In this document: piece after piece, positions 3,867-33,157 of the stretch
Position numbering within the stretch: position 1 is the first letter of the stretch
Layout of the letters: every line of letters begins with the position of its first letter
Assembly (NCBI GenBank): GCA_937919825.1
Contig: CALFPA010000087.1
Coordinates: 1-33,157 of the forward strand
From: an uncultured Spartobacteria bacterium
GTDB taxonomy: Bacteria > Verrucomicrobiota > Verrucomicrobiia > Chthoniobacterales > Terrimicrobiaceae
Direction of reading: 5' to 3'
DNA: 33,157 bases
Position numbers and translations under genes: made by a program
Notes under the pieces: generated by a model
Databases searched by the model: none
The model's input: the letters and a program-made list of their open reading frames with translations, nothing else
Told to the model about the DNA's origin: nothing

Positions 3867-3923
3867 CGTTAGAAACAAATCTCACCAAAACCTCCCACGA
3901 AGCAAGCCGTCCCCCGTGGCGTG

Positions 3924-7133: not shown

Positions 7134-7259
7134 GGCGCGGGAGACTATTCAAACCCTCTCGCAGCGGCAACGAAATGGTTGGACTAAAAATTACCGAGGA
7201 ACGAAAAAACGCTTGTGGAACCTCGCAAATATAGCACCGGCACGAAGGGACGATTGAAA

Positions 7260-8308: not shown

Positions 8309-8317
8309 TTAAAAAAC

Positions 8318-9022
8318 TCAGAGCGGCAGGTGAAGAAGCCGTCCGCATTGCGGGCAAGACACAATCGACTTGTCGGAGCGGAGGGCGAGACTGGTTTGCG
8401 CGGTAACCTTCATGTGGCAACCGGTGCAGACATCATGCTCCACAGGCACCACGACTCGGGCATTTTTGGTCTCAAAGAGCCGCTCGTAGCGTTCGATCAA
8501 ATCCTCGTCGAGTCCCTCGAGGAGTGCTGCCCGGCCGGCCGCCATCTCGTCGATGCGGCTTTTTAGATTCCCTTCTTTTTCGCGAATCGTGGTGATTTGC
8601 GCATCGTATTTCGCCTTGTCCTCGGCGTGGGCTTTATCGGCCGCGGCGAGTTGAGGGGCGAGACCCTCGGCTTCTTCCATGAGGACCAGTTCTTTGTCCT
8701 CGATCGCTGAAATGGCGCGCTCGGCGGTGGCGATTTCGTGGGAGAGCGCCGAGTATTCTTCGTTTTTCCGAGTCTGGAGTTGCTGATTTTTGTAGCGGGA
8801 AATTTGATCACGCTTGGCGGCGATTTCACCCTCGAGTGCCTTTTTTTCCACCTCGATCGCCATGGAGCGGGAGCGGGCGGTTTGGAGGCGGCTCGCGGCG
8901 TCTTCCACGAGCTTTTGCTTGGAGGCGATCTCGAGGGGGATCGATTGAAGTTCGAGACGGAGGGTTCGGAGGCGCTGGTCGCGGTCTTGGAGCGCGAGAA
9001 GTTTTTCAATGGCTTCGAGCAT
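8318..9022 (-). CDS. Zinc-ribbon coiled-coil protein (COG1579/CT398-like)
   Basis: A 234-residue protein with a long helical coiled coil (about residues 5-180, heptad-rich and full of Lys, Glu and Ala) followed by a C4 zinc ribbon, with CTGCH and CPQCG as the two knuckles about 20 residues apart. This is the layout of the COG1579 family, whose chlamydial member CT398 has been linked to sigma-54 and secretion components. The exact role in other bacteria is unsettled. The ATG ending at 9022 begins MLEAIEKLLALQ, as expected for the family; an upstream TTG at 9061 is less likely. It is divergent from the cobA-hemD fusion across 86 bp. Confidence 0.85.
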   Translation of the reverse strand: MLEAIEKLLALQDRDQRLRTLRLELQSIPLEIASKQKLVEDAASRLQTARSRSMAIEVEKKALEGEIAAKRDQISRYKNQQLQTRKNEEYSALSHEIATAERAISAIEDKELVLMEEAEGLAPQLAAADKAHAEDKAKYDAQITTIREKEGNLKSRIDEMAAGRAALLEGLDEDLIERYERLFETKNARVVVPVEHDVCTGCHMKVTAQTSLALRSDKSIVSCPQCGRLLHLPL

Positions 9023-9108
9023 GCGCGGAGCTTGAATCGGGCCGGGAATTTTATCCAGCAATCAAAAGGATTTCTTTGGGGCGGCCCGGATGCCACGATG
9101 AGTCATTC

Positions 9109-10614: not shown

Positions 10615-10678
10615 ACGACCACTTCCCTGCATCCCTATGGATACCGACTGCGTAATCACTTAATATGCCGTTAAGTAA

Positions 10679-11098
10679 ATGATCGCCGACTTGTCAGAAA
10701 TCTCTATCTCGCGGGTTCCCGAAGGTCTTTCGGACAGAAAAACGCAAACGCTTTTCAAAAAAATAACCCGCCGGATTTCCTCGGAGCCCGCCCGATTGCA
10801 AACGGACGCCAAGGGCCTCATCACCTCGGTGAATCCTGCTTTTACCCGGCTTTGTGGCCACACTTTCGAGGAAATGAAAGGGCGCAAGCCCGGGGCTATG
10901 CTTCAAGGTCCAGAGTCCTCCCGCGAGAGCATTGAAATCCTGCGCCACGCGATTCGGAATGGAGTTCCCTGCGTGACCGAGTTGGTCAACTACCACAAAA
11001 ACAATATCCCCTATCGCGTGAGGATCGATCTTCGTCCCATGCTCTCCGATTCTGGAAAAGTCATCGGGTTTGAAGCCGAGGAGTATCTGTTGGACTAA
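10679..11098 (+). CDS. Single-domain PAS protein (LOV-like fold without the flavin cysteine)
   Basis: A 139-residue protein that is essentially one PAS domain: LQTDAKGLITSVNPAFTRLC, then the KGRKPGAMLQGPES loop, and a closing strand pair ending SGKVIGFEAEEYLLD. The order resembles LOV domains, but where photoactive LOV has the GRNCRFLQ cysteine this protein reads GRKPGAMLQ, so no cysteinyl-flavin adduct can form. There is no output domain, so it may act by protein-protein contact. The last 38 bases overlap the 3' end of bioF on the opposite strand. It starts 64 bp after the cobA-hemD fusion. What it senses is unknown. Confidence 0.8.
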   Translation: MIADLSEISISRVPEGLSDRKTQTLFKKITRRISSEPARLQTDAKGLITSVNPAFTRLCGHTFEEMKGRKPGAMLQGPESSRESIEILRHAIRNGVPCVTELVNYHKNNIPYRVRIDLRPMLSDSGKVIGFEAEEYLLD

Positions 11099-12254
11099 TC
11101 TTCGCCAACTCGGCGGCGAGTGTTTGGATATTCTCCGGCGAGTGTTTGGCGGTCAGGGCGACTCGCAATCTCGCGGAGCCTTTGGCCACGGTCGGGTAGC
11201 GAATCGCCGGAACCAACAATCCGGCATCGAGTAATTGAGCAGACACATCCATCGCTTCCGATTCGCCGCCGATTATGCAAGGGATGATCGCGGCCGGAGA
11301 TTCTTCCAACCCCAATTGCTCTCCTGCATACGCGAGGTTTTGGCGGAGCGAGGCCCGCAGGGCATCACCCTCGCTCGAGCGGCAAATCCTCAGAGCCTCC
11401 CGAGCCGCAGCCGCCGCCGGAGCAGGCTGGGCTGTGGAAAAAATAAAGCTCCGCGCGCTGTTGATCAGAAATTCCCGCAAGGCCTCGCTCCCGGCAATGT
11501 AGGCCCCGTGCGCGCCAAGGGCCTTGCCGAGAGTTCCCATCTGGATCTCGATCCGATCAGAAACTCCCTCGCGATCGGCCAGTCCCCTTCCCTCTTCGCC
11601 GAGAACCCCGACCGCATGGGCCTCATCAAGCAAAAGCCAAGCCCCGAAGCGCTCTTTCAGCGCGACCAATTCGGCCACAGGAGCTAGATCGCCATCCATG
11701 CTGTAAACGGACTCAGCGACCACCAGCACGCGGGCATGCGGGTATTTTTCCCTGGCCCACCGGAGATGACTTTCCAACTTCCCGAGATCGTTGTGGTGAA
11801 AAACCCGGATCGTCGCGCGGCTCAATCGAGCGCCATCCACCAGACAGGCATGCGAGAGTTTGTCTAAAATCACAACATCCCCAGCACCACACAGCGCGGG
11901 GATCGTTCCCAGTGCCGCCGCATAACCACTCGAAAAACTCAACGCCGCGGGCGTCCGCTTGAAGTCGGCAATCGCTGCTTCCAATTCCTCGTGCGCAGAA
12001 AGCGTGCCGCAGACGAGTCGTGACGCCCCGGACCCAAATCCTCCCCTCTCCCACTCCGCCATCGCGGCATCGCGCAAGGCGGGATGGTTCGCCAAGCCGA
12101 GATAATCGTTGGAGGAAAAATTCAGCAGCTCCCGACCATCGCGCCGAACCTTAATTCCCTGAGGTCCCTCGATCGATAGAAGATGCCGACGCAAGGAACA
12201 GCGGCTGATTTCCTCCAACTTTTCCGCAAGAAAATCCTCGAGTGCGTGATCCAT
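11061..12254 (-). CDS. bioF: 8-amino-7-oxononanoate synthase
   Basis: A PLP enzyme that joins pimeloyl-ACP (or CoA) and alanine to give 8-amino-7-oxononanoate, the first step of the conserved biotin ring pathway. The 397-residue product has NFSSNDYLGLA (45-55), FHHNDLGKLE (152-161), DEAHAVGVLGEEGRG (210-224) and the PLP lysine in TLGKALGAHG (Lys 244). Related alpha-oxoamine synthases (Kbl, HemA, Spt) share the fold; the HNDLGKLE and the 397-residue length favour BioF. The ATG follows the pdxJ stop with no gap. No bioA, bioB or bioD is in the window. The 3' end overlaps the convergent PAS gene by 38 bp. Confidence 0.9.
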   Translation of the reverse strand: MDHALEDFLAEKLEEISRCSLRRHLLSIEGPQGIKVRRDGRELLNFSSNDYLGLANHPALRDAAMAEWERGGFGSGASRLVCGTLSAHEELEAAIADFKRTPAALSFSSGYAAALGTIPALCGAGDVVILDKLSHACLVDGARLSRATIRVFHHNDLGKLESHLRWAREKYPHARVLVVAESVYSMDGDLAPVAELVALKERFGAWLLLDEAHAVGVLGEEGRGLADREGVSDRIEIQMGTLGKALGAHGAYIAGSEALREFLINSARSFIFSTAQPAPAAAAAREALRICRSSEGDALRASLRQNLAYAGEQLGLEESPAAIIPCIIGGESEAMDVSAQLLDAGLLVPAIRYPTVAKGSARLRVALTAKHSPENIQTLAAELAKISPTDTPRLQTR

Positions 12255-12992
12255 TTATTCTTTGCAAACCAACCGGCGCATTTCGGCAACCGCTTGATGA
12301 AGGCCCACGGAGACCGCCCGCGAAATGATCGAGTGGCCAATATTTAATTCCTCCAACCCGGGCAGAGCCAGGATCGCGGCGGTATTTTCGTAGTTAAGTC
12401 CATGGCCCGCATTGACGCGGAGACGAAGGTCGAGGGCGAGTTGCGCACCTTGGTGGAGTTTTTCCAACTCGCGGTCGCGAGCCGCTCCCAACGCATTCGC
12501 GTAGGCGCCGGTGTGGAGTTCCACAAATTCCGCGCGCAGCTCAGCCGCGGCTCGAATTTGATGTTCCTCGGGATCGATGAAGAGGCTCACACGCGCCCCG
12601 GCGTCCTGGAGTTGGGTGACGACCACCCGCAAACGCCCGATCTGCCCCGCGCAATCCAACCCGCCTTCGGTCGTCACCTCCTGGCGTTTTTCGGGAACCA
12701 GACAAACATCGTGTGGCTTCACCCGAAGGGCGATTTGGACGATGTCGTCGGAGAGTCCCATTTCGAGGTTGAGCTTGGTGGTGATCCGTTCGCGGAGCTC
12801 GAAAATGTCCCGATCTTGGATGTGGCGACGATCCTCCCTCAAATGCGCCGTGATCCCGACAGCACCGGCTTTTTCAGCGACCAGCGCAGCAGTCACCGGA
12901 TCGGGTTCTGCATTCGGGCTCTGTGGCGTTTCGCGGTAGCGGGCCTGCCGCAAGGTGGCGACATGGTCGATATTAACTCCAAGACTAGGCAT
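12255..12992 (-). CDS. pdxJ: Pyridoxine 5'-phosphate synthase
   Basis: PdxJ condenses 1-deoxyxylulose 5-phosphate with 3-amino-1-hydroxyacetone 1-phosphate to pyridoxine phosphate, in the DXP-dependent vitamin B6 route. The 245-residue TIM-barrel protein begins [20 protein letters not shown] and contains [44 protein letters not shown] and [13 protein letters not shown], all characteristic. I use the ATG ending at 12992; an ATG four codons upstream (13004) is possible, and further extension upstream is not supported by the family. Its stop codon abuts the bioF start. The two are probably one transcript, with bioF consuming the PLP pathway product as cofactor. Confidence 0.95.
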
Positions 12993-13086
12993 ACCCCTGA
13001 TCATTCCGTTGAGGAGTTCCCGGGGCAAGACCGGCGTCGAGGGGCGATGCCTCGGGCTTGATTGCAGACGGCCCCGCACTTATCCC

Positions 13087-14622
13087 ATGCGGGTGAATTT
13101 CAAGGCCCTCAAAGCCCACCTTCCCGAGATTGCCATCCTGCTCGTTGCAATTTTTCTGCGCGTGTGGCTGATCGAGATCAAGCCCGCCCACTTCGATGAG
13201 GGGATCAATGGCTGGTTCGCCGACCAAATGCGGGCCACGGGTTACCACAAATATGACCCCACGAATTACCACGGCCCGCTCCACTTCTACGCCGTGTTTC
13301 TTTCCCAAACCCTCTTCGGCCGCGAGCTCTGGGCCCTGCGGCTCCCGGCGATTCTGGCGAGCATCCTGAGCATTCTCGCCCTCTTCCGATTCCGGGATTA
13401 TTTCGGCCAACCCACAGCGCGATTTGCCGCTCTCGCGATGGCCCTGTCGCCCGCATATGTCTTCTACGGCCGCTATTCGATCCACGAATCTTGGCAGGTT
13501 CTCTTCTCGATTTTACTCCTCCATGCGGTCCTCGGCCTTTGGCAGACCGGCGCACGCAAGCACCTATTCCTTCTCGCCACGTCCATCACCGGAATGATCC
13601 TCACCAAGGAAACCTATGTCCTCCACATCGGTTGCCTCGTTCTTGCTGTCCCCGTGCTTTTGATTTGGAAATTCCCCTCGCCTCCCAGCCCAGGCTGGCC
13701 GCTCGCGAAGCCGGATTGGACGCGCGATGATGTCGTCACAGCCTTTGGCGTTTCCGCGATCGTGCTTGTCTTTTTCTACTCGGGAACCTTTCTCGACTTC
13801 CGCGCCGTCAGCGGACTTTGGGAAACCCACGCGGCTTGGTTCAAAACGGGCATGGAGGCCGGCGGACACGAAAAAACCGCCTACGATCTCGTTGGTCCGC
13901 TCAATTACTACTGGCTCGCCTTGATGGCGCGTTGCTTCGAGTGGCCGGCCCTTCTGGGGGTCATCGCGGGGCTTCGATTCATCATGCCCTCCGATTCGCG
14001 ATACCGCTATGTGGCCATCACCGCCGCCGGCACCCTGCTCGCCTACTCGATTGTCTCTTACAAAACGCCCTGGTGCATCATTTCGATGCTCTGGCCGTTC
14101 TACCTCCTCCTCGGTGCGGTAATTCAGGAGGCTGTTTCAAAAACCCACCGCCGCACTCTTTGGTGGCTCATTGTGCCGCTGCTCGCCGGGTCGCTCTACT
14201 ACGGCGTGCGCTTGAATTTCTTTATCTTCACCGATGACAGCGAACCCTATGTCTATGTGCAGACCTACGAGGACATCAACGGACTCACCAAACCCGTCCT
14301 CCAAGCCGCCAAACTCGACCCCGATGGATATCAGATGGAAGGCGCCATCATGCTCGACAGCTACTACCCGCTGCCTTGGATTTTCGGGGACTTCACCCGC
14401 ATCGGGTATTTTAACAAAGACCACCAGCCCTCCAGCTGGAACCACGACTTTATCGTCATCGACTCCGCGCAGGAATCCGAGATCGAACCCAAACTCTCCC
14501 GGGCCTATCTGAAAATCCCATTTCGCCTGCGCAGCGGCCAGGAACCCTGCACCGCCTACCTGGCCGCCGAGAAATTCGAACAAGTCGTGGGACGAAAACC
14601 CGACATCGTGCCGACGCCGTGA
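13087..14622 (+). CDS. TIGR03663-like polytopic membrane glycosyltransferase-type protein (copy 2)
   Basis: A 511-residue membrane protein homologous to the one at 2403-3866. It shares the acidic pair in PAHFDEGINGWF (DE at 37-38) and TNYHGPLHFY (HGP at 62-64), then FYGRYSIHESW, ILTKETY and SYKTPWCI, which match TKETFGI and SYKTPWLAM in copy 1. About ten hydrophobic segments are followed by a soluble tail containing YYPLPWIFGD, also mirrored in copy 1 as GYWPLPWYLRG. It is likely a GT-C type transferase using a lipid-linked sugar; the acceptor is unknown. The next gene overlaps its stop, indicating coupling with a second membrane protein. Confidence 0.8.
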   Translation: MRVNFKALKAHLPEIAILLVAIFLRVWLIEIKPAHFDEGINGWFADQMRATGYHKYDPTNYHGPLHFYAVFLSQTLFGRELWALRLPAILASILSILALFRFRDYFGQPTARFAALAMALSPAYVFYGRYSIHESWQVLFSILLLHAVLGLWQTGARKHLFLLATSITGMILTKETYVLHIGCLVLAVPVLLIWKFPSPPSPGWPLAKPDWTRDDVVTAFGVSAIVLVFFYSGTFLDFRAVSGLWETHAAWFKTGMEAGGHEKTAYDLVGPLNYYWLALMARCFEWPALLGVIAGLRFIMPSDSRYRYVAITAAGTLLAYSIVSYKTPWCIISMLWPFYLLLGAVIQEAVSKTHRRTLWWLIVPLLAGSLYYGVRLNFFIFTDDSEPYVYVQTYEDINGLTKPVLQAAKLDPDGYQMEGAIMLDSYYPLPWIFGDFTRIGYFNKDHQPSSWNHDFIVIDSAQESEIEPKLSRAYLKIPFRLRSGQEPCTAYLAAEKFEQVVGRKPDIVPTP

Positions 14623-16256
14623 TGCCTGCAGGCCCCTCCTCACCTAGGGAAATCCTCTCCCGTGCCGCCACCGGGTTGCTCGTTGCCGCTTCGATTGCGG
14701 TGATGACGGGAATCGCCTGCGCTTTTTCCACAAAAGGAATCACCCAGCCCGGCGCCATTTTTTCGCTGGGAAGCGGGGTGATGGCAGGCTTCCTCGCCTT
14801 TCTTCTCAGCCGGGATCCTAATCAACCCACGCCAAGCGCTTGGGATATCCTGATGCTTGCGATCTTCGGCATCGCCTCGTTCCGCGCCTTCGCGTGGCTG
14901 CTTTACGCCGTTGGAAATTCCTGGCGAATCCTTTCACCGAACAATCTCGGCGACCTCTCACTGCACATTCAATTTATCCGCTACTTTGCCGAAGGGGCCC
15001 CGTTCTGGCCGGAGAGCCCGATCCTCTCCGGAGTTCCCCTCACCTACCCGATCGGAGCCGATTTTTTTAATAGCCTCCTTTGTCTCGCAGGAATGCCACT
15101 CGAGCGCGGCTTGATCTGGACTGGTTTGGCGGGCGCGGCCCTGTCCGCTTGGGCGCTCTGGCGATGGGGCGGCGCGTTTGCCCTTGCGGCGTTGCTCTTC
15201 AACGGTGGACTTCTCGGATTCGCCGTATTCCAGACCGGCCAAATCGAGGACTATCAAACCGGCGCTGCCTGGAAAAATTTCTTCCTCACAATGATGGTTC
15301 CTCAACGCGGGATGCTGTTCGCCCTGCCGGCAGGGTTGCTCCTGCTTCGTTGCTGGCGGGAGGATTTTTTTGGAAATGGCTCGGGCGTCCCGCGCCTCTT
15401 GCAATTTCTCCTCTATGTCTCGATGCCCCTATTCAGCGTTCACAGCTTCCTCTTCCTGAGCCTCACGCTTGCCTCCATTTTCGTGTTCCAGCCCTCCTCG
15501 AGATGGAGGCTTCTGGGATTTGTTGCCTTGGCAATTCCTCCTGCCACTCTCGGAGTGTGGTTCGTTACGGGAGGATTCTCTGCGGCCTCCGGTGTGCGGT
15601 GGCTGCCCGGTTGGATGCAGGGCGATGACGGTTGGAAGTTTTGGGCTCTCAATTTCGGAATCCTTCTCGTCATGGCTCCCTTCTTTTTCTGGAAAGCAAT
15701 TGTTCGTGGAAACCCAGAGTCTCGGGCCTTTGGAGGGGTCTCGATGGGTGTCTTCATCCTGTGCTTTCTCGTCGCGTTTGCCCCCTGGGAGTGGGACAAC
15801 ACGAAGCTCCTCATCTGGGCCTGGCTCGTAGCAGCTCCCATGATCTGGAGCTTAGTCATCAAGCCACTCCCCTCGATTCAAAGAGCCACCCTTTGCGTGT
15901 TGTTGTTTTTCTCCGGTGCCGTGTCCCTCGTCGGTGGACTGGACCGGCGCCATGGCTACGACTTGGCCTCGCGAGAGGAATTAGCGGCGACCCGCATCGC
16001 GTTCCAGGATGTTCCCGCGCTGGACCGGATTGCTATTGAACCCAGATTCAACCATCCCGTCATTCTCCTGGGGCGTCCGGTGGTTTGCGGCTACGAGGGG
16101 CATTTGTGGAGTCACGGACTCGACTACCGGGAAAAGCTCGCGAAACTCCGCAAAGTCCTCGCTCTCGAAGCTGGCTGGATCGAGGCTGCCAAAGAAATCG
16201 GAGCGAAATGGGTGCTGCCAACCGGCCAGTCCAAACCGGTCAAAGTGCCCGAGTGA
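14619..16256 (+). CDS. Polytopic membrane protein, 545 residues
   Basis: A large integral membrane protein with roughly twelve hydrophobic segments and a soluble C-terminal region (about 460-545). No catalytic motif is certain. An early loop carries SPNNLGDLSLHIQFIRYFAE, then SGVPLTYPIGADFFN, which resembles the extracytoplasmic loop of GT-C membrane glycosyltransferases, with an acidic residue near the first loop. Later AFAPWEWDNTKLLIWAW and the tail GLDYREKLAKLRKVL are recognisable but unassigned. A GTG at 14619 overlaps the upstream stop by 4 bases and an ATG at 14622 by one; either may be the start. It probably works with the upstream TIGR03663-like protein in surface glycan or glycoprotein assembly, which is inference. 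Confidence 0.75.
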   Translation: MMPAGPSSPREILSRAATGLLVAASIAVMTGIACAFSTKGITQPGAIFSLGSGVMAGFLAFLLSRDPNQPTPSAWDILMLAIFGIASFRAFAWLLYAVGNSWRILSPNNLGDLSLHIQFIRYFAEGAPFWPESPILSGVPLTYPIGADFFNSLLCLAGMPLERGLIWTGLAGAALSAWALWRWGGAFALAALLFNGGLLGFAVFQTGQIEDYQTGAAWKNFFLTMMVPQRGMLFALPAGLLLLRCWREDFFGNGSGVPRLLQFLLYVSMPLFSVHSFLFLSLTLASIFVFQPSSRWRLLGFVALAIPPATLGVWFVTGGFSAASGVRWLPGWMQGDDGWKFWALNFGILLVMAPFFFWKAIVRGNPESRAFGGVSMGVFILCFLVAFAPWEWDNTKLLIWAWLVAAPMIWSLVIKPLPSIQRATLCVLLFFSGAVSLVGGLDRRHGYDLASREELAATRIAFQDVPALDRIAIEPRFNHPVILLGRPVVCGYEGHLWSHGLDYREKLAKLRKVLALEAGWIEAAKEIGAKWVLPTGQSKPVKVPE

Positions 16257-16598
16257 TCAGGACGGAATCGCCCGCCAAAGCATCACCAAAATGGTGAGAA
16301 GAATCAGGCAAAGAGCGAGGAATTTAACCCGGGCCGCGTTGAGATCCTTGCTCAGACGGGTCTTGCCGCGACGCATCGGCTGAGCGCTCCGCGAAACCCT
16401 CGCTCCACCCAGCGAAATCGAGGGAGCCGTGAGCTCCGCCTTGAGGGTCGTCTTTTTCTCTTTCTCGATCTGCTTGGGAATTTTCACCAGCAATCGGTTC
16501 AGCTCGACCTCACGCTTTTTGAGATCGAGTTGCGCTTTGTCCAATTGACGCTGGGCGTCGGTGACTTTTGTGGATGAGGAAAATTTTTTTAGAGACAT
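16257..16598 (-). CDS. Small coiled-coil protein with C-terminal membrane anchor
   Basis: A 113-residue protein of unknown function. Residues about 10-55 are a charged coiled coil (DAQRQLDKAQLDLKKREVEL, then KQIEKEKKTTLK), a basic linker follows (QPMRRGKTRLSKDL), and residues about 90-110 are one hydrophobic helix (FLALCLILLTILVMLWRAI), giving a tail-anchored topology with the coiled coil in the cytoplasm. It starts 3 bp after the stop of another coiled-coil, tail-anchored protein, so the two probably form a complex. The stop abuts the stop of the convergent membrane-protein gene with no spacer. Confidence 0.7.
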   Translation of the reverse strand: MSLKKFSSSTKVTDAQRQLDKAQLDLKKREVELNRLLVKIPKQIEKEKKTTLKAELTAPSISLGGARVSRSAQPMRRGKTRLSKDLNAARVKFLALCLILLTILVMLWRAIPS

Positions 16599-16601
16599 GT
16601 C

Positions 16602-17219
16602 TTAGCGACCGGATGTGACAGACCAGATGTAAACAAGGAGGGCCACCAAGGCGATAGCCTGAATCGGCAGGGTGAAAGCGAATCCGCTCTTCAGCCAATA
16701 GATAAATCCACGCTCCTCTTCAGCGAGTTGGTAGTCCATTTCCTGCATCGGCAAAGAAACCTCCCCGGAGGTGTCCACGGAGAGTTTGGCTTGAGCCTTG
16801 ATGTATTCCGAGCGGGCGTCTTCGACAGAACTGAGCGCCTTGCTGAGCTCGCGGGGGAGATCTTGGGGCAACCAACCGCGGGAATTGATCGAATCAATTT
16901 GGTGAAGGTGCTGGGTGAAGGAATTGTAAATCGTGTGCATCTGCTCCACGCGTTTCTGCGACTCTTCGATTTCGCGTTGAACGACCACCAGAGCCCGCGT
17001 GAGCTTATCGAGCATTTCGGTGCGCCCCTGCTCGAGCGAGTCTTGGCGACGCTTCAACTCTTCCAGACGCGCCTTCTCGCGTTCGATCTCTTCTTGTTTT
17101 TGCTTGAGGCTTTCCAGCTCCGCGCGGACTTGCTGCACCTTGTCTCCGAGTTCGCCGGAGGTTTCTGCATCAAGATTGAGGAGGGATTCGGAGAGGGGGG
17201 CGCGCGGGTCGGATGACAT
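16602..17219 (-). CDS. Coiled-coil protein with C-terminal membrane anchor, 205 residues
   Basis: Unknown function. Residues about 20-100 form a long coiled coil (ELGDKVQQVRAELESLKQKQ, EEIEREKARLEELKRRQDSL), a middle region follows (INSRGWLPQDLPRELSKALS), and residues about 180-200 are a single membrane helix (FTLPIQAIALVALLVYIWSV) ending almost at the C-terminus. There is no signal peptide, so most of the protein should be cytoplasmic. It is in a minus-strand row with a secreted protein upstream (55 bp) and a second tail-anchored coiled-coil protein downstream (3 bp). The paired layout suggests a membrane-tethered hetero-oligomer. Confidence 0.75.
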   Translation of the reverse strand: MSSDPRAPLSESLLNLDAETSGELGDKVQQVRAELESLKQKQEEIEREKARLEELKRRQDSLEQGRTEMLDKLTRALVVVQREIEESQKRVEQMHTIYNSFTQHLHQIDSINSRGWLPQDLPRELSKALSSVEDARSEYIKAQAKLSVDTSGEVSLPMQEMDYQLAEEERGFIYWLKSGFAFTLPIQAIALVALLVYIWSVTSGR

Positions 17220-17274
17220 GATGCTCGGTAGGCTTATCCACGCTCACAAGAAACCTCCAGAAAAAATCCGGAGA

Positions 17275-18180
17275 CTATTTGTTTTGATTGTATGTCAGCG
17301 GACGAAACTGCCCCTGGGCATCCCGGAAAAATCCACGCACCAAGGCTGTCGCTTGATGAGCCGCTCCGGAGGGACGCAGTGTGAGATTCAAATCCTCGAT
17401 CGACCAAGCATCGCGCTTCACGCGTCCACTGGAATCAACGATACGGCCAAAAGGTCTCGTGAGCTTCGCGTAGGCGGCGTCATCGAGCCGGGCGCCTTCG
17501 AGTTTTTTCGGGTTGTAGAGGCTGATCCACCACCCGCCAAAGGCATCGGGTGCACTGGCTGGGGTGATTTTGATGCAAAAGTCTTCGAGGCATTCCTGCC
17601 CGCCGGTGAAGGGAATCGCATAGATCGCCTGGACTTCCTTGCGGCTCGAGAGGAAGCCCACAAGAAAACTGCGAAGAACTCGGCGGGTCTTGTCATGCGA
17701 TGCCAGTCGCCCGTAAACCCCAAACTCCACCGCCACCGGATCGTCAGGATCGCCGTAGATATTCATCTCCGCGAGTTCGTTGATGCGGAAGGAGAGATAC
17801 GGGATGTTTTGTAAATACCCGTTGTCGATGTGCGTGGCGGGGATTTGCTCGAGGGACTTGATGGCGTCGTTGTTGCGGAGGTCATTCACCATCACACGCC
17901 ACGCGGGCAGGTCGCCGGGAGTATTCGCTTTGGTAAACTCGAGACCGATATCCGCCTGGTCGCGGATGCGAACGATCTCGGACTTTGGAAATTGCTGGAT
18001 CGAATAGCGGTTTTGCAACCAGACCTCCTTCGAGGTGTTACGAACGATGACTCCTTTGTGGCTCGATCCGTCCTTGAGAAGCACCGTATCCGGCTCTGCA
18101 AAACCCTCCGTCGCGGCATGCGCGGCAACCGAGAAAAGACAGACAGCGGGCAGAACCCATTTCGACATTGAAGGCAACAT
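17275..18180 (-). CDS. Secreted hypothetical protein with N-terminal SH3/LSm-like motif
   Basis: A 301-residue protein with a Sec signal peptide (SKWVLPAVCLFSVAAHAA) that should leave a mature protein of about 275 residues. The mature N-terminus, DTVLLKDGSSHKGVIVRNTS through PKSEIVRIRDQ, looks like a small beta-barrel of LSm/SH3 type that is frequent in exported proteins of planctomycetes and verrucomicrobia. The rest, with GVYGRLASHDKTRRVLRSFL, GGQECLEDFCIKI (two cysteines that may pair) and WWISLYNPKKL, matches nothing I recognise. The start is ATG at 18180 or the internal ATG at 18168. It is divergent from the GH1 lipoprotein across 25 bp, so the promoters must overlap coding sequence or each other. 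Confidence 0.75.
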   Translation of the reverse strand: MLPSMSKWVLPAVCLFSVAAHAATEGFAEPDTVLLKDGSSHKGVIVRNTSKEVWLQNRYSIQQFPKSEIVRIRDQADIGLEFTKANTPGDLPAWRVMVNDLRNNDAIKSLEQIPATHIDNGYLQNIPYLSFRINELAEMNIYGDPDDPVAVEFGVYGRLASHDKTRRVLRSFLVGFLSSRKEVQAIYAIPFTGGQECLEDFCIKITPASAPDAFGGWWISLYNPKKLEGARLDDAAYAKLTRPFGRIVDSSGRVKRDAWSIEDLNLTLRPSGAAHQATALVRGFFRDAQGQFRPLTYNQNK

Positions 18181-18205
18181 TGGGCGAAACTATAAGCCTC
18201 GCCCA

Positions 18206-19534
18206 ATGATGCTCAATCCGATTTCCCGTCTCGCGGTGCTTGCCTTGGTCGCCGCGCTCGCAGGGTGCGTGATGCCTCCGAAGCCCTACCAAAAACCCTC
18301 CGCCACGACCTCTCGTCCGATTAAGACCGGCAAATTCTGGTGGGGCACCTCGACCGCGAGCTACCAAAACGAGGACCGCGGACTCCCGAAAGACTCGCCA
18401 TTTTATTTCAAGACAGACTGGGACATTTTCGCTGAAGAAGGTCACATCCCGCCGCGCGGCGAGGACGCCACTTTCTCGTGGAGCCGGTTCGATAAAGACA
18501 TCGCCGCTTTGAAAAAAATCGGTGTGAACCACTACCGCTTCGGCATCGAATGGGGCCGAGTGGAGCCCCAGCCCGGTGTCTTCAATGAGGCCGCGATACG
18601 GCAATATGCCACGATGGCACGCAAGCTGAAGGCCGCCGGAATCGAACCGATCGTGACACTCTGGCATTTCACCTTCCCATCCTGGCTCTACGACACCAAA
18701 AACAAATCCCGCTCGAATTTCCTGCACCCAGATGTCGAAACGCGCTGGAAGGAATATGTCACCAAAATGGTGGACGCCCTCTCACCAGATGTGAGGATTT
18801 GGGTGCCGCAAAACGAACCCAATGGCGCCCTCTACATCGGATATTTCGGCGGCCACTGGCCTCCCGGCTTGCTGATCACTCCCGGCGCACTCAAGAAGGC
18901 GACCACGGTCTCCGTTCGCATGTTCCGCGAAGCCTCCCGCATCATTCATGAAAAAGAGCCCGGCGCGCTCGTGATGGGCATTTACTCGCTTCCAAACTGG
19001 CAACGCAGCCACCTGCAAGACCCGACCGGCTTTGTTTACAACATGATGCAAAGGCAGAATTTCGACCACCTTGACCGCTCGGCCGATGCGATGGACCTCA
19101 TTGGCGTGAATTACTACTACTCGCAAGTCGCCTCCGCCCGCCGCTTCATCCTCCGGCCCCAAGGCGAGCTCAGCTCGAACTACACGCAGAACGGCTGGCT
19201 CATCGACCCCGAGGGCCTGCACTCCGTGCTCACGACCGTTTCCAAACGCTACGGCAAACCGATTGTGATTTCCGAAAACGGCATCGGCACCCAGAGCGAA
19301 CAGAAAAAAATCCGCTACTTCCGCGAGCATGTGAACCAGATGCGCCGCGCGATGAATGACGGCGTCGACATTCGCGGCTACTTTCCCTGGACGCTGATCG
19401 ACAACTACGAGTGGGCGGAAGGCTACGCCGCAAATTTCGGCCTCACCCATCTCGACAAAAAATCCATGAGCCTCCAAATCGAACCCGCTGGCCAATGGTT
19501 CCGCAATTTCATCAAATCCAACCCCGAGCCCTAA
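18206..19534 (+). CDS. Glycoside hydrolase family 1 beta-glycosidase, lipoprotein
   Basis: A 442-residue GH1 enzyme, a retaining beta-glycosidase that probably cuts beta-glucosides or beta-galactosides. Residue landmarks are FWWGTSTASYQNE (45-56), HYRFGIEWGRVEP (109-121), the acid/base glutamate in PQNEP (Glu 204), NYYY (302-305) and the nucleophile in ISENGIG (Glu 357), plus YEWAEGY near the end. A signal peptide ends in a lipobox (ALAGC, Cys 21), so the mature enzyme is likely tethered to a membrane on the periplasmic or outer side. Most GH1 enzymes are cytoplasmic, so export is notable. ATGs at 18206 and 18209 are adjacent. purC follows after 21 bp. Confidence 0.93.
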   Translation: MMLNPISRLAVLALVAALAGCVMPPKPYQKPSATTSRPIKTGKFWWGTSTASYQNEDRGLPKDSPFYFKTDWDIFAEEGHIPPRGEDATFSWSRFDKDIAALKKIGVNHYRFGIEWGRVEPQPGVFNEAAIRQYATMARKLKAAGIEPIVTLWHFTFPSWLYDTKNKSRSNFLHPDVETRWKEYVTKMVDALSPDVRIWVPQNEPNGALYIGYFGGHWPPGLLITPGALKKATTVSVRMFREASRIIHEKEPGALVMGIYSLPNWQRSHLQDPTGFVYNMMQRQNFDHLDRSADAMDLIGVNYYYSQVASARRFILRPQGELSSNYTQNGWLIDPEGLHSVLTTVSKRYGKPIVISENGIGTQSEQKKIRYFREHVNQMRRAMNDGVDIRGYFPWTLIDNYEWAEGYAANFGLTHLDKKSMSLQIEPAGQWFRNFIKSNPEP

Positions 19535-19555
19535 GCCGGAATTGATTTTCTTCCT

Positions 19556-20437
19556 ATGACCCTTCTTGAATGCAACCTCCCCGGCATCCCGAAACTCCGA
19601 AGCGGAAAAGTGCGCGAGGTTTTCGACCTCGGCGATTCCCTATTGATCGTCGCGACGGACCGCATCTCGGCGTTTGACTGCATCCTGCCGACCGGTATCC
19701 CGCGCAAAGGCGAAGTCCTCACCCAGATGACCGCCTTCTGGTATGGCGTGCTGGATTTTGTGCCGAACCATTTCCTCACCGCGCGATTCGAAGCCTTCCC
19801 CTCCGTGCTCCACCCCTTCGAAGCGCAACTCCGCAACCGCTCAATGATCGTGCGAAAAGCGAATCCGCTTCCGGTCGAATGCGTCGCGCGTGGCTACATC
19901 GCCGGCTCAGGTTGGAAGGAATACCAGACCTCCGGCACCGCCGGTGGCCATGAGGTTCCCGCCGGCCTCCTGCAATCCGCCAAGCTCCCCTCGCCACTCT
20001 TCACCCCCTCCACAAAAGCCGAGAGCGGACATGACGAAAACATCACCTGGAAGGAATGCCGCCGGATCCTCGGCGACGAACTCGCCGTCCAAGTCCGAGA
20101 CCTCACGATCGACCTCTACGAGCACGGTTGCGCCCACGCCTCGCGAGCCGGAATCCTCATCGCCGACACCAAATTCGAATTCGGCCTAGCCGATGGCGAG
20201 TTGATCCTGATCGATGAATGCCTCACACCCGATTCGTCACGCTTCTGGCCCGCCAACTCCTGGAATCCCGGCTCGAATCCCCCGAGCTACGACAAGCAAT
20301 TCGTGCGCGATTATCTTGAGACATTGGACTGGGACAAAACCCCGCCCGCGCCCGAGCTTCCTGCCGATGTCGCTGAAAAAACCTCCGCCAAATACATCGA
20401 AGCCTTCGAACAACTCACCGGCCTGAAACTCCCCTGA
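19556..20437 (+). CDS. purC: Phosphoribosylaminoimidazole-succinocarboxamide synthase
   Basis: PurC (SAICAR synthetase) joins aspartate to CAIR with ATP in purine synthesis. The 293-residue product is of the longer yeast-Ade1-like form rather than the ~237-residue E. coli form. It has GKVREVFDLGDSLLIVATDR, the ATP-site start; PVECVARGYIAGSGWKEY; AESGHDENITW; GILIADTKFEFG; and DECLTPDSSRFWP, all standard for the family. Other purine genes are absent. It is on the same strand 21 bp after the GH1 gene, and its stop codon lies inside a hairpin shared with the convergent gene. Confidence 0.97.
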   Translation: MTLLECNLPGIPKLRSGKVREVFDLGDSLLIVATDRISAFDCILPTGIPRKGEVLTQMTAFWYGVLDFVPNHFLTARFEAFPSVLHPFEAQLRNRSMIVRKANPLPVECVARGYIAGSGWKEYQTSGTAGGHEVPAGLLQSAKLPSPLFTPSTKAESGHDENITWKECRRILGDELAVQVRDLTIDLYEHGCAHASRAGILIADTKFEFGLADGELILIDECLTPDSSRFWPANSWNPGSNPPSYDKQFVRDYLETLDWDKTPPAPELPADVAEKTSAKYIEAFEQLTGLKLP

Positions 20438-27030: not shown

Positions 27031-27039
27031 GAAAAAAGC
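27031..27039 (-). terminator. T-tract after tRNA-Pro
   Basis: Directly after the tRNA on the minus strand comes GCTTTTTTC, a six-T run. With the paired acceptor and T arms as the stem it may act as the tRNA transcript terminator. This is suggestive only. Confidence 0.3.
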
Positions 27040-27113
27040 TCGGGCCGGCGAGATTCGAACTCGCGACCTCCTCGTCCCGAACGAGGCGCTCTACCAAGCT
27101 GAGCCACGGCCCG
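27040..27113 (-). tRNA. tRNA-Pro (anticodon CGG)
   Basis: The minus strand folds as a complete tRNA of 74 nt. The acceptor arms CGGGCCG / CGGCCCG pair over 7 bp, the D arm is GCTC / GAGC, the anticodon stem CCTCG / CGAGG encloses the loop TTCGGGA (anticodon CGG, reading CCG), the variable loop is 5 nt, and the T arm GCGAG / CTCGC carries TTCGAAT. The discriminator is A and CCA is not encoded (the following bases are GCT). An integrase-like gene starts 90 bp from its 5' end on the other strand. Confidence 0.96.
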
Positions 27114-27160
27114 ATAAAATTGATTGTGTGATATTTATAAAAGTGAAAAAATCCCCGAAA
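27114..27160 (-). promoter_or_regulatory. AT-rich promoter region for tRNA-Pro
   Basis: The stretch upstream of the tRNA 5' end is very AT-rich against a GC-rich background and includes TTTTATAAATATCACAC on the minus strand, with TATAAA about 24 nt from the tRNA. A -10 element is plausible; no convincing -35 is visible. The integrase may use the same AT-rich region in the other direction. Confidence 0.3.
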
Positions 27161-27190: not shown

Positions 27191-27203
27191 CTATTTTTTG
27201 GGC

Positions 27204-28304
27204 ATGAGCAAGCACAAGAAAACGCAGGAAACAGAGTCGGATTGGTCAAAGATTGGTCCATGTCTTTATCGGTATCGGAAAGCCAACTACTACGCTTTGG
27301 TTCGCTTCAAGGGCAAACAGATTCGCCAGTCTCTCGACACGGACGACTTAGAGTTGGCGCGGCGCAAGTTGAAGAAATTCCGCTCCGATCTGGAGACAAC
27401 CAAGCCCAGCGAATCCCGCCGCACCATCGCCATGCAGTCTGAGACTTTTCTGGCCGGTCTTGTCGGCGAACCCACCACCAAGGACAACGCCACCCGCTCC
27501 ATCAAGAACCTCGTTGAGCATTTCGGTGGCGACACACTTATCAAGAAGGTGACCCCCTCCGATTGTCGCGCATGGATCGCCACTTTTGAATTGTCGGCGG
27601 ACGCAAAAAACAAACGCATCCAACATGGTCGCCAATTTTTTCAAGCCGCCGTTGATGATCAAGTCATCCCCTCGAACCCCATGGAGGGGATGAAATACTT
27701 TGTCCGAGCCAAGCGGACCAGCATTACACCCTCCGACGAGCAGTTTCTCGCCATCGTCGCTGACCTCCGCGCCCAGGTGTGGAATGGACATAGCCGAAAC
27801 GATTCCGCCGACTTCGTAGAACTTGCCGGTCGCCTTGGTCTTGGTCAGGCCGAACTCGCCGGCATCCAGCGCCAGCACATAAATCTGGAGGCCGACGAGA
27901 TCGTTGTTTTTCGCAAGAAGATGAAACAAGGATTCACGATCCCGATTTATCCCGAGGCGAGGCCGATCATCGAGCGCCGGTTGGAAGCCATGACCGAGGG
28001 GCCGGAGCAAAGACTACTGCCGCAGGACGACTGCAAGAAGGGACTCGCCGCCGCCTGCAAGCGCCTTGGTTTTCCGAACTTTGAGCCGCGCTCCCTCCGC
28101 CGCTATTTCATCACCAAGGCACTCCGCCTCGGCGTGGATGTCCCGACCATCGCCCGCTGGCAAGGCCACAGGGATGGCGGCGTCCTGATCATGTCTGTCT
28201 ATGGCGACATCGTTCGCATGGATCACTCGCAGAAAATGGCGAAACTCCTCGCGCCCAAGCCGACCGGCGACAACATCGCGCAATTCATGGCAGCAACCGC
28301 CTAG
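27204..28304 (+). CDS. Tyrosine recombinase-like integrase with altered catalytic boxes
   Basis: A 366-residue phage-integrase-family protein. Residues about 10-60 are an arm-binding-like segment (LYRYRKANYYALVRFKGKQI), about 75-165 the helical core-binding domain (FLAGLVGEP ... HGRQFFQAAV), and about 175-345 the catalytic domain. In the catalytic domain K241 or a neighbour, R299/R300 (RSLRRYFITK), H322 (RWQGHRDGG) and the nucleophile Y333 (SVYGDI) can be placed. Box I reads GRLGLGQAELAG where the first catalytic arginine is expected, and the box II histidine (HxLR) is an arginine. I use the ATG at 27204; a TTG two codons earlier also fits. It is adjacent to a tRNA-Pro on the other strand. 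Confidence 0.88.
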   Translation: MSKHKKTQETESDWSKIGPCLYRYRKANYYALVRFKGKQIRQSLDTDDLELARRKLKKFRSDLETTKPSESRRTIAMQSETFLAGLVGEPTTKDNATRSIKNLVEHFGGDTLIKKVTPSDCRAWIATFELSADAKNKRIQHGRQFFQAAVDDQVIPSNPMEGMKYFVRAKRTSITPSDEQFLAIVADLRAQVWNGHSRNDSADFVELAGRLGLGQAELAGIQRQHINLEADEIVVFRKKMKQGFTIPIYPEARPIIERRLEAMTEGPEQRLLPQDDCKKGLAAACKRLGFPNFEPRSLRRYFITKALRLGVDVPTIARWQGHRDGGVLIMSVYGDIVRMDHSQKMAKLLAPKPTGDNIAQFMAATA

Positions 28305-28345: not shown

Positions 28346-28915
28346 TTAATCGACGCGATGCAGGAGCAAGCGGGCGAGCTTCTTCACTAAGCTCCCCTCC
28401 TCCGCGCTGACGCACTCGCCACTCGCGGCCTTCTCCAAGGCTCGGATTTCGCCCCCTGTCGCGTAGTCCATCACACCAGGAGAATCTAAAACCTCACCGG
28501 CAAGATTCGCCAGACTCTCGGTCTCTGAAAAATCCGATGCAGAACTCGCAAGTCTCGCGTTTGCGCGTGCGCTCCACCCGACCCAGCAAGGCAATTCTGG
28601 ACGAAAAAAACCGAGGATTTCGGCTTTTAGCACCACCTGCTCGTCATCAGACAGGAGATCGATTTTTCGTCGTATTTCGGCGACTCTTTTTTGAAATGAT
28701 GGCACCGCCCCAAGGCCGGACAATTTGACCGGAAAAAACCTCCGCACCCCCAGAGGAAACCCGCGACCTTCGCGCCCTTTGCTTCTTTCAATCACCTCTC
28801 GAAGGGCAACGGCATCAATCAGCCCTTTCTCTATTTCAAGAGACGGATTTTTCTTAACATACCGAGATATTGTTGAGCGATTTACTCCGTAAATTCGAGC
28901 GGCATTCGCACGATC
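28346..28915 (-). pseudogene. 5'-truncated gene for helix-turn-helix protein
   Basis: An open frame of 189 codons that begins directly after an in-frame stop (TGA, 28916-28918) with no start codon near its beginning. The first residues read DRANAARIYGVNRSTISRYV, a helix-turn-helix of Hin/homeodomain type, followed by KKNPSLEIEKGLIDAVALRE. A GTG at 28795 could start a 149-residue product but would drop the DNA-binding part. The C-terminal region (FSETESLANLAGEVLDSPGV, VSAEEGSLVKKLARLLLH) is unrecognised. It converges on the integrase across 41 bp. The 5' end runs into the GH2 gene fragment on the other strand, so it was probably cut by the rearrangement. It may have been an element-borne regulator or terminase-like protein. 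Confidence 0.65.
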
Positions 28916-30934
28916 TCATTCACCGCCGATGACGGCTTTCACCTCAATGGCCGCCGGGTGCAGTTGAAGGGAGTGAATCTGCACCATGATCAGGGGCCCT
29001 TGGGCGCGGCGTTTTTTCCCCGCGCCATGGAGCGGCAGCTTCAGATCATGAAGGAGATGGGAGTCAATGCGATCCGCACCTCCCACAACCCGTCCGCGCC
29101 CGAGTTGCTGGAACTTTGCGACCGCATGGGGTTCGTGGTTTGGAACGAATTGTTTGACAAATATGGACCCACCGCCGGTGTGCAATGCGGGATCGACGAG
29201 TTCGTCAAAACCTACGCCGAACGGGAAGCGAAGAATTTCATTTTGCGCGACCGCAATCACCCGTGCGTGGTCGTGTGGTCGATTGGCAATGAGATAGCCG
29301 ATCTGAAGAAAGAACACGTTGATGCCATGGTTGGCTATTTCAAAAAGTATGACACCACCCGACAGAACACACTCGGCAGCCACATCCCCGCCCAAGCCTC
29401 GAACAGAATCATCGATGCCTTGGACACCTGTGGATGGAACTATGGCCGAAAGTATATGATCGCGCGCAAAGCCTATCCGAAAACGCCAATCATCTACAGC
29501 GAATCGGCTTCAGCCTTCTCAACTCGCGGTGCCTACAAGTTGACGCTGCCAAAAAATAAGACGGATTGGGGCAACGATGCGGAGTTGACATCCTACTCAT
29601 TGACCTCGGCTAAGTGGTCGGATATCCCGGAGATCGAGTTTGAAGGCATGCGCAAGGATACCTTTGTCGCCGGTGAGTTTGTCTGGACCGGTTTCGATTA
29701 TCTCGGGGAGCCCACACCCTTCGACCAGGCCCGCAGCAGCTACTTTGGCATCGTGGACTTGGCCGGACTCCCCAAGGACAGTTATTACCTTTATCGCAGC
29801 CATTGGATGCCTGAGTCACCCACCGTCCATCTCTCACCGCATTGGAATTGGCAAGGGCATGAGGGCAAGCCGGTGCCGGTCTTTGTTTACACCAACGGCG
29901 ACGAGGCCGAACTCTTCCTCAATGGAAAAAGCTTGGGTCGTAAAAAGAAGGCAAGCGGGGATCTACTGGATGTCGCCAACTTGGCCTATGGCAAAGTCAC
30001 ATCGGCCAGCAGTGATGAGTTGAAACAGGATACGCTGGGCAATGTTCAAGAGGAAAATCTATCAGGCAAAGCGATTGATGGGAATCCCTCGACGCGGTGG
30101 TGCGTCAGCAGTAGCAGCTACCCGCAACACTGGCAGGTAGACTTGGGCGAAGTCCGGGAAATCTCCAAAGCGAATATCACTTGGGAAGCGAATAAGGGGC
30201 GGTATGACTTTGACCTCTTGGTTTCCATGGATGGCGTGAAATGGGACAAGGTCGATGCCAAGGTGAGCAGGCCGAGTGGTCTCTCCGAAGTGGACTTTGA
30301 AAAGCTCAAGACGCGCTGGGTGCGCATCGAGATCAAGGGCGGTCCGGGCTCGGCGAGCATTCGTGAAGTCGAAGTTCTTGAACGCGATATGAAGACGGAA
30401 GACCCGTATTTTAAAATCGTCGATAGCTACCGCCTCCGTTGGCTCGAGGTGCCCTATGAAGCGGGCGAAATCAAGGCCGTCGCCTATCAAGCCGGAAAAA
30501 AACTCGGTGAGGCCGTTGTCAAGACCGCCGGTGCAGGCGCAAAACTGAAACTCACCGCCGACCGCAGCCAACTCAAAGCCGACGGCATGGATCTGTGCTA
30601 CGTCACCGTCGAAATGACCGATCAAGAGGGGAATTTGTGCCCGTTGGCCATGGACAAACTGACCTTTGCCGTCGAGGGTGCCGCCCGCCTGAGCGGGGTG
30701 GACAATGGCAATCAGATGGGCCACGACTCCTTCACCGACTCAACCCACCCGCTGTTTTACGGGAAAGCCGTCGCAGTCCTGCGCAGCATTCCGGGGAAAT
30801 CCGGAGAGGCCGGCGACCAGAGAAAGACCCCGGAGTTTCCCCCAAAGCGGTTGTGGCGCCACTCGAATTCGAGCTCAAAGTTGGTCAGAACCTTTCGGGA
30901 CTTCAGCCCTCCATGGGGAACCCCCGTGCAATGA
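28901..30934 (+). CDS. GH2 beta-galactosidase-type enzyme, truncated at both ends
   Basis: The homologous sequence begins at 28901 (GIRTISFTADDGFHLNGRRV) without a start codon; the first usable start is GTG 28958 (658 residues). From there, residues about 1-290 are the GH2 catalytic barrel, with the acid/base in SIGNE (Glu 112) and the probable nucleophile in YSESASAFSTRG (Glu 182). Residues 305-330 open a DUF4982 domain (VYTNGDEAELFLNGKSLG), about 338-475 are an F5/8C discoidin domain (NPSTRWCVSSSSYPQHWQVD), DUF4982 resumes at 490 (YRLRWLEVPYEAGEI), and a C-terminal beta domain follows to about 615. The sugar-binding N-terminal domains and signal peptide are missing. After residue 615 the reading is antisense to a DUF1080 gene. 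Confidence 0.85.
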   Translation, partial: GIRTISFTADDGFHLNGRRVQLKGVNLHHDQGPLGAAFFPRAMERQLQIMKEMGVNAIRTSHNPSAPELLELCDRMGFVVWNELFDKYGPTAGVQCGIDEFVKTYAEREAKNFILRDRNHPCVVVWSIGNEIADLKKEHVDAMVGYFKKYDTTRQNTLGSHIPAQASNRIIDALDTCGWNYGRKYMIARKAYPKTPIIYSESASAFSTRGAYKLTLPKNKTDWGNDAELTSYSLTSAKWSDIPEIEFEGMRKDTFVAGEFVWTGFDYLGEPTPFDQARSSYFGIVDLAGLPKDSYYLYRSHWMPESPTVHLSPHWNWQGHEGKPVPVFVYTNGDEAELFLNGKSLGRKKKASGDLLDVANLAYGKVTSASSDELKQDTLGNVQEENLSGKAIDGNPSTRWCVSSSSYPQHWQVDLGEVREISKANITWEANKGRYDFDLLVSMDGVKWDKVDAKVSRPSGLSEVDFEKLKTRWVRIEIKGGPGSASIREVEVLERDMKTEDPYFKIVDSYRLRWLEVPYEAGEIKAVAYQAGKKLGEAVVKTAGAGAKLKLTADRSQLKADGMDLCYVTVEMTDQEGNLCPLAMDKLTFAVEGAARLSGVDNGNQMGHDSFTDSTHPLFYGKAVAVLRSIPGKSGEAGDQRKTPEFPPKRLWRHSNSSSKLVRTFRDFSPPWGTPVQ

Positions 30935-31098
30935 AGTGATCCAGGCTCCTTACCAAATTGAAAGGTCTCCGGATCACAATTTACCGCCGCAAAATCAGCC
31001 TCTCCTAGCACCTTCCACTCGGAGGCCGAAAGCACTTGGAGCGACGAAAAAACAGCCAGCACCACTCCAGACAGGAACGCAGATCGATAGGGCATCAT
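30757..31098 (-). CDS. DUF1080 (3-keto-disaccharide hydrolase-like) protein, C-terminally truncated
   Basis: A 113-residue remnant. A signal peptide (SAFLSGVVLAVFSSLQVLSA) is followed by the start of a DUF1080 beta-sandwich: PETFQFGKEPGSLHCTGVPH, then GLKSRKVLTNFELEFEWRHN and GGNSGVFLWSPAS. Full-length proteins of this family are about 200-260 residues, so roughly half the domain is missing; the last ~13 residues (PDFPGMLRRTATAFP) are read antisense through the GH2 fragment. It begins 18 bp after the stop of the sulfatase gene on the same strand, so the original operon was sulfatase then DUF1080. DUF1080 proteins are frequent in polysaccharide-degrading verrucomicrobia. Confidence 0.8.
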   Translation of the reverse strand: MMPYRSAFLSGVVLAVFSSLQVLSASEWKVLGEADFAAVNCDPETFQFGKEPGSLHCTGVPHGGLKSRKVLTNFELEFEWRHNRFGGNSGVFLWSPASPDFPGMLRRTATAFP

Positions 31099-31116: not shown

Positions 31117-33157
31117 CTAAAACTTGGGATCAAACACAAACCTGTTCACAAACTCATTCCGGGATTGCGGAGCGTCTTGTTGAGTGCGAATCGCCGCCCG
31201 AAGCGCGCGAATTGCATCGGCGTGGTCCATGTCACCGGCCTTCGGATCGGCGTGGATTTTCTTGGCTTCAGCCAGTGCGTTCTTGAGCGCAGTGGTGCCG
31301 CCTGTTGCTGAGCCGGCGGCTTCATCGCCGAGCTTGATCAATGCACTCAATCCGGGTTTCCACGGGAAGGCATTTTTCAGCGTTTCCGAAGTGATTTTTG
31401 GCGATTCGTTTTTGGGGCGGGACATGACAGGGAGGATGGGTTCCGAGGTGACGCAAAAGCGGTTCTCATCAAGCAGCAGAAAGATCGCGTGCGTGGCACC
31501 GGGCGGCATCTCTGCTTCCACCCGCCCGTCGGAAATTCGCGCCGGTTTTTCAAACCATTCCTCGCGATGCCCTCGCGTGGTGTCGAATGGCGCTGGATTC
31601 AACGTGTAAAGGAGCTTCGCTTCGCGGATGGCTGATTTTCCCTCACCCGATTCCAATGTCGCCCACACGAAGTCTTCCTTGGATCCAGTCTCCAGGACTG
31701 CGGGCACGGCTTTGCGCTCCGAGGCGGAATACACCATCGACTCTCTGTTTTTGTAGGGGAGCGGCGCACCGGATTTTTCCACGAAGGCATTTAACTCGGA
31801 GAGCATGGCATCGCGCCGCGCTGGCTCCTGGGCAGCGAGATCGGTTTTTTCGCCGATGTCATTAGGTGAACCATCCTCATTGTAGAGCCGGAAGAGCTCG
31901 ACCTTGGGTTCACTATTCGCTCCCCCCTTCACACCGAAATTTCGGACCAATTTCCAATCCCCCTTCCGGATCGCCATCGACATGTGGGCGGGAAATGGAA
32001 AAAACCAATACAGCGACTCGCGAGGGGTGGAATCCGCCAGGAGCACGGGACCATCCCCTCCGTGAAACTGAGGCAGGAGACTCCTTCCATCCAGAGCCAG
32101 CGAGGGGTCTGGCTTCATCCCGGCGATCTCCATGAAGGTCGGAAAAAGATCCACGAGAGTGATCGGGGTCTCACAGGTTGTGCCGGCTGGCACATGCGGC
32201 CCGGCGACCAAAAATGGAATTCGGATGCCTCCCTCATAGGTGTTTTGTTTTCCACCAGTGAGAGGGAAGTTGTCGGTGTAGGGCAGGACACCGCCGTTGT
32301 CGGAATCCAGAATGACATAGGTGTTGTCGATCAGCTTGTGCCCGGGATTCCGTGGGTCGTCGGTGGTTTCGAGGAAATCCAAGAGCTTCCCAACCATCCA
32401 ATCGAAAGAATCAACCATGCTCGCGTAGTAGGGATTCGTGTGTCCCCCCTTGCCCTTGTTCAACTCCGCATCCGGATCGGTGGGGAATTCATACCCCATC
32501 TTTTTCAAGTAGAGCTCGAAGCGCTCACGGTCTCGCGTCTGGATCGGACCATGCACAAGAAATGTCGCGAAATTCAGGAAAAATGGCTCGTCCTTGTGTT
32601 TGTCCATGAAGCCAATCGCCATGTCGGTTAACTTGTCGTAGGGACGTCCGTCGGCATCCGCTTGAAAGGGATCGTCCGCTTTGTCGGTGGCGAAGTCCGA
32701 GAGCCGGTCTGGCTTCATTTTTGACCAGATGCCAAAAAAGGCGTTCTTTTTTCCATCCCTCGGATTCCAGAGTTCCTCGTCATTGTAATACTTCTCGAGG
32801 TTTTTGTTGCGCTCGCTGAACCCAAAGTCGAAGCCTTGGTCAGTCGGGAAAGGGTAGCCTTCGGATTTGCCGCCCGAGTGCCACTTGCCGATGTGGGCGG
32901 ATACATATCCCGCCTTTTTCAGCGTATCCGGCAGCGTCGGCTCACGATCGGCCAAACCATACGAATAAAACGGCTGGATAGTGGGATTCTCCACCCGATG
33001 CGGCGCAGGAATCATGCCTCCATCGACATGGTAAACCCCGGTATTCACTGGGTGCTGGCCCCGCAAGAACGCAACCCGCGAGGGGGCGCATGAGGCAGAG
33101 GGAGAGTATGCCTGCGTGAACCGGCGAGACATCTTCGTCAATCGGTCGAGATTGGGC
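31117..33157 (-). CDS. Formylglycine-dependent sulfatase (partial, N-terminus beyond window)
   Basis: The first codons lie beyond the right edge; 679 codons are visible. The sequence enters at PNLDRLTKMSRRFTQAYS and gives the active-site consensus CAPSRVAFLRG; its cysteine (codon 33088-33090) becomes formylglycine in this family (CxPSR). Next come AHIGKWHSGGK (active-site Lys and His), VHGPIQTRDRERFELYL, a metal-site DSDNGG and a DUF4976-like C-terminal part (IRKGDWKLVRN). An unusual ~170-residue tail (about residues 500-674) with a coiled end (ALKNALAEAKKIHADPK) has no match I know. It likely removes sulfate esters from polysaccharides. The signal peptide and the DDxG metal site lie outside the window. 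Confidence 0.92.
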   Translation of the reverse strand, partial: PNLDRLTKMSRRFTQAYSPSASCAPSRVAFLRGQHPVNTGVYHVDGGMIPAPHRVENPTIQPFYSYGLADREPTLPDTLKKAGYVSAHIGKWHSGGKSEGYPFPTDQGFDFGFSERNKNLEKYYNDEELWNPRDGKKNAFFGIWSKMKPDRLSDFATDKADDPFQADADGRPYDKLTDMAIGFMDKHKDEPFFLNFATFLVHGPIQTRDRERFELYLKKMGYEFPTDPDAELNKGKGGHTNPYYASMVDSFDWMVGKLLDFLETTDDPRNPGHKLIDNTYVILDSDNGGVLPYTDNFPLTGGKQNTYEGGIRIPFLVAGPHVPAGTTCETPITLVDLFPTFMEIAGMKPDPSLALDGRSLLPQFHGGDGPVLLADSTPRESLYWFFPFPAHMSMAIRKGDWKLVRNFGVKGGANSEPKVELFRLYNEDGSPNDIGEKTDLAAQEPARRDAMLSELNAFVEKSGAPLPYKNRESMVYSASERKAVPAVLETGSKEDFVWATLESGEGKSAIREAKLLYTLNPAPFDTTRGHREEWFEKPARISDGRVEAEMPPGATHAIFLLLDENRFCVTSEPILPVMSRPKNESPKITSETLKNAFPWKPGLSALIKLGDEAAGSATGGTTALKNALAEAKKIHADPKAGDMDHADAIRALRAAIRTQQDAPQSRNEFVNRFVFDPKF

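Follow-up and report, generated by a model that had tools for sequence, protein, structure and literature searches.

A probable GH2 gene remnant between two cut genes at the integrase-proximal edge of a putative tRNA-Pro(CGG) island in a Spartobacteria genome

We propose, with a probability of about 0.75, that a genomic island in an uncultured Spartobacteria bacterium has a gene remnant at its integrase-proximal edge, where a foreign piece of a GH2 gene was joined between two cut genes. The window, i.e., the whole stretch of DNA analysed, is the entire 33157-bp contig C87 of the host genome (2.7 Mb in 143 contigs, 99% complete), and the GH2 junctions are known from this one MAG and one strain. 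The remnant is ordinary genome debris, showing just that genes for carbohydrate degradation are mobile among these Verrucomicrobiota and decay at the borders of tRNA islands, and the integrase family beside it may matter more. The features concerned are the following:

27038-27114, minus strand: tRNA-Pro(CGG), putative island target (ARAGORN)
27198-28304, plus strand: tyrosine integrase, 368 aa (Pfam Phage_integrase, E 2e-8; PHROG phrog_1, E 1.3e-36)
28346-28915, minus strand: HTH gene without a start, 5' end apparently cut at about 28900 (Pfam HTH_psq, E 4e-5; open frame)
28900-30812, plus strand: fragment of a predicted GalB-like GH2 beta-galactosidase, residues 289-927 of 946 (93.8% to G008:C332:3485-5403; Pfam)
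30805-31098, minus strand: DUF1080 / 3-keto-disaccharide hydrolase gene, N-terminal 98 residues only (Pfam 3keto-disac_hyd, positions 28-75 of 187; 41% to G005:C89)
31117-33156, minus strand: sulfatase, on the same strand as DUF1080 (Pfam Sulfatase, E 4.3e-40)

The GH2 fragment and the genes beside it

A single alignment joins window positions 28900-30812 to positions 3485-5403 of contig C332 in G008, a genome of the same genus, at 93.8% DNA identity, and the gene on that contig is an intact GH2 gene of 946 aa, the kind of counterpart that the earlier note had proposed to look for in related genomes. Per-base identity to this gene rises from 20-25% left of 28900 to at least 90% right of it, and is 95-100% up to 30812, after which it falls to background. 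From the letters alone, the GH2 frame had been described as starting mid-domain at 28901, without a start or N-terminal domains, and as ending at about 30800-30813; both limits agree with the homology, which begins at residue 289 and stops at 30812. The fragment lacks 288 N-terminal and 19 C-terminal residues of the G008 protein, and signal peptide, start, N-terminal and sugar-binding domains are all absent. A search of the rest of the host genome found neither missing end at a similarity of this level, nor a second copy of the block. In G008 the gene is flanked by GH95-like and GH78-like genes, named by sequence reading and not by profile search.

The Pfam domains present in the fragment are the GH2 TIM barrel, DUF4982, F5/8 type C, and GH2 C5, and the fragment begins at the entry of the TIM barrel (PF02836, Glyco_hydro_2_C, E 8.7e-32, profile positions 5-212 of 302). 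The NCBIfam GalB model (NF041463) is matched from position 349 of its 869 positions onwards, with a score of 541.7 bits, which falls below the cut-off of 900 bits set for a full-length match; solved GH2 chains are matched from about residue 290. The fragment resembles GalB and PDB 5t98 in the TIM barrel and the region that follows it (about 350 residues), and differs from them in the absence of the N-terminal 288 and last 19 residues and in an F5/8 type C domain placed after the start of the DUF4982 region.

Left of the tRNA, core genes are 96% identical to G003, the closest relative, and about 70% identical to G008 (measured on core genes at 22.5-26 kb). The GH2 piece, at 94% to G008, is absent at that level from G003, a distribution which argues that it is horizontally acquired, directly or via a third lineage, and that its source is another, related Verrucomicrobiota lineage. 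A further relative, 88% identical at the protein level, is found in the uncultured bin Loc090907-8m_bin-482. From a GTG at 28958 the frame runs on for 658 open codons. It contains no stops, the dN/dS against the G008 gene is 0.22, and polarised changes are about equal on the two branches (20 synonymous and 12 non-synonymous versus 24 and 12); for these reasons the gene was probably cut recently. The 3' end of the frame reads into antisense DUF1080. Having no start, signal peptide, or sugar-binding domain, the fragment is presumably non-functional.

On the right, the DUF1080 frame has 98 residues of its own, running leftwards from 31098, and then continues into antisense GH2, its last codons overlapping the junction. 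The nearest relative in the family (G005:C89, 41%) has 261 aa and the alignment ends at about its residue 127, in keeping with the claim that the 3' half of this gene had been lost; the missing half was not found elsewhere in the host genome. The sulfatase next to it is 70-71% identical in DNA to intact sulfatases on two contigs (G000:C141 and G005:C148), and its 5' end is missing solely through the contig end. On the left, the HTH frame is bounded by a stop at 28916-28918 and the first ATG, GTG, or TTG is found at codon 41, after the HTH, so that the gene indeed has no start codon before this domain, as had been noticed. Searches of 26 genomes of the family, 387 of the phylum, and IMG/VR detected no relative of it and hence no intact form, and we regard the gene as probably 5'-truncated from its missing start codon. 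The earlier picture of three genes broken at two points with no spacer therefore holds for the assembled sequence in all its truncations.

The two junctions and how they may have formed

The possible overlap is limited to CGGCATTCGCACG at the left junction and to GGAGAGGCCG at the right, i.e., block and flanks have no more than 13 and 10 bp in common; the real overlaps are likely to be smaller than these maxima, and intact flank genes would be needed to fix them. No direct or inverted repeats, target-site duplication, or transposase frame was found at the block edges (28900 and 30812), and no Ku gene in the host genome or in the 15 other genomes of the genus searched. Because the overlaps are short and signs of a transposon and Ku are lacking, illegitimate recombination with little homology is the most likely mode of joining. 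We envisage insertion of an element with a tyrosine integrase into tRNA-Pro(CGG), at its anticodon loop of 7 nt, giving an island that carries a sulfatase and probably more genes for polysaccharide degradation. A 1.9-kb internal piece of the GH2 gene would then have been joined between the 3'-truncated DUF1080 and 5'-truncated HTH genes, in opposite orientation to both, through illegitimate end-joining, either by capture of a fragment in a single event or by acquisition of a longer piece that two deletions later shortened; both routes fit the data, which do not tell them apart. A literature search for similar gene remnants returned nothing specific.

The earlier note had offered three readings, namely a block moved beside an integrase, two deletions, and a false join in the assembly. 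The first two in combination fit best, with a foreign 94% block in an integrase island at tRNA-Pro and sequence lost on both sides, and the third is disfavoured. An assembly or binning chimera, in which the assembler would have joined separate molecules carrying the GH2 block, the HTH side, and the DUF1080 side, is conceivable in a MAG of 143 contigs whose junctions are seen in one assembly only (the junction words were found solely in loci from C87), but we regard it as unlikely. Usual assembler word lengths exceed overlaps of 10-13 bp, and the chimera is less likely because the common sequence at the junctions is this short; moreover, no other contig carries the missing halves of the genes, neither junction recurs in the genome, and the 6 kb compared left of the tRNA are colinear with G003. 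It is very improbable that the shortened frames work as genes in their own right, one encoding a GH2 catalytic module without a leader and the other a short DUF1080 protein: the 658 open codons, the dN/dS of 0.22, and the retained TIM barrel region would suit such a view, but the GH2 fragment has neither the signal peptide nor the N-terminal domains that its relatives possess, continues into antisense DUF1080, and scores far under the GalB cut-off, and a low dN/dS is also expected after recent loss. Movement of the block by a transposon or integron-like mechanism in place of illegitimate recombination is hardly credible either, for although the block lies within the island and close to the integrase, its edges show neither a transposase frame nor terminal inverted repeats nor a target-site duplication, and attachment-type repeats are seen at the tRNA only.

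The tRNA-Pro(CGG) island and its presumed other end

The remnant preferred above, i.e., a foreign piece joined illegitimately between two cut genes, has a setting that the earlier note, which named the integrase, did not recognise: together with the adjacent tRNA-Pro, the tyrosine integrase would mark the edge of a genomic island, and the GH2 block lies 0.6 kb behind this integrase. The integrase starts 84 bp from the tRNA 5' end, and synteny with G003 (96%) breaks at 27076, inside the anticodon loop TTCGGGA (7 nt). Intact tRNA-Pro(CGG) genes with the same gene on the 3' side were found in three loci (L056, L057, L059). On the synteny with G003, the 3' half of the tRNA gene would be core sequence and the 5' half beyond the anticodon loop would be supplied by the island. 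The tRNA-Pro(CGG) of the closest relative is also cut at the same anticodon loop (L048, G003:C13, 6090-6969); unrelated DNA with a transposase-like frame, recognised by eye, follows the cut tRNA, and no intact copy of tRNA-Pro(CGG) is present in that stretch.

A displaced tRNA-Pro 5' half was found on another contig of the host genome (G000:C136:854-901), identical at 46 of 48 positions to window positions 27071-27118 and ending at the same loop. There is also a 24-bp match near each end, located about 120 bp further in on C136 and in the DNA just before the integrase start in the window. The link between C87 and C136, which are separate contigs in the assembly, consists of this tRNA half and the 24-bp repeat, and the simplest reading is that both contigs belong to a single island whose two edges each hold gene fragments. 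When C136:1-853 was compared with the tRNA-Pro 5' flanks of three relatives, just short, repeat-like, or insignificant matches were obtained. Near the displaced tRNA half, the start of an anaerobic sulfatase maturase gene is fused to unrelated sequence (C136, L049, 1078-1467), the maturase remnant itself (C136:1275-1467) corresponding to roughly the initial 60 positions of a model of 363. Further in, L049 carries genes for an AraC-type regulator, GH92, a ROK kinase, an MFS transporter, an esterase, and several sulfatases (3131-20000), a cluster that is probably island cargo for a sulfated glycan.

Compared with the tDNA islands compiled in Islander (PMC4383910), the present putative island is alike in having a tyrosine integrase by a restored tRNA, a displaced tRNA fragment, and a crossover in the anticodon loop. 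It is unlike them in that the 5' half is the one restored and displaced and that the two presumed ends are on different contigs; tRNA and displaced fragment share one contig in six relatives, described below. The integrase lies inside the putative island (27198-28304). A 5' fragment is present in 159 of the 3919 Islander islands (PMC4383910).

The integrase family in the order

Of 197 genomes from the order, 89 contain matches to the integrase, and the tRNA is head-to-head with the integrase in 22 of the 24 loci examined. Longer stretches were fetched for 20 loci, and a displaced tRNA piece lies downstream on the same contig in six (L133, L134, L135, L136, L146, and L147); in every one of the six it is the 5' part, which spans nt 1 to nt 37-41, stops at the anticodon loop, keeps the orientation of the tRNA, and is 100% identical to it. 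These six islands measure about 2.2 to 8.7 kb and are inserted in tRNA-Val, Met, and Arg genes. In a seventh stretch (L140) the piece found is a 3' one, on the side of the tRNA away from the integrase, and the other loci of the survey are short contigs or have no detectable fragment. A pattern search for the integrase in IMG/VR gave no match.

The family looks like a consistent case of the rare 5'-displacing type. We propose tentatively, at slightly under even odds, that its integrases consistently cut the tRNA gene in the anticodon loop and restore the 5' half, in which case DNA of the element would drive, and hence control, expression of the host tRNA. According to a review that describes the pTN3-like archaeal integrases (PMC8371274), it is rare in bacteria for a restored tRNA to be expressed from the side of the element; the integrase here differs from these in being bacterial. 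If consistent, this lineage of 5'-restoring anticodon-loop integrases (tRNA-Val, Met, Arg, and Pro) would lend itself well to studies of how a mobile element comes to supply a host tRNA promoter. Three of the small islands (L135, L136, and L146) contain genes that look by eye like replication or packaging genes, with a terminase-like frame in L136, and on such by-eye gene calls the family may include phage satellites.
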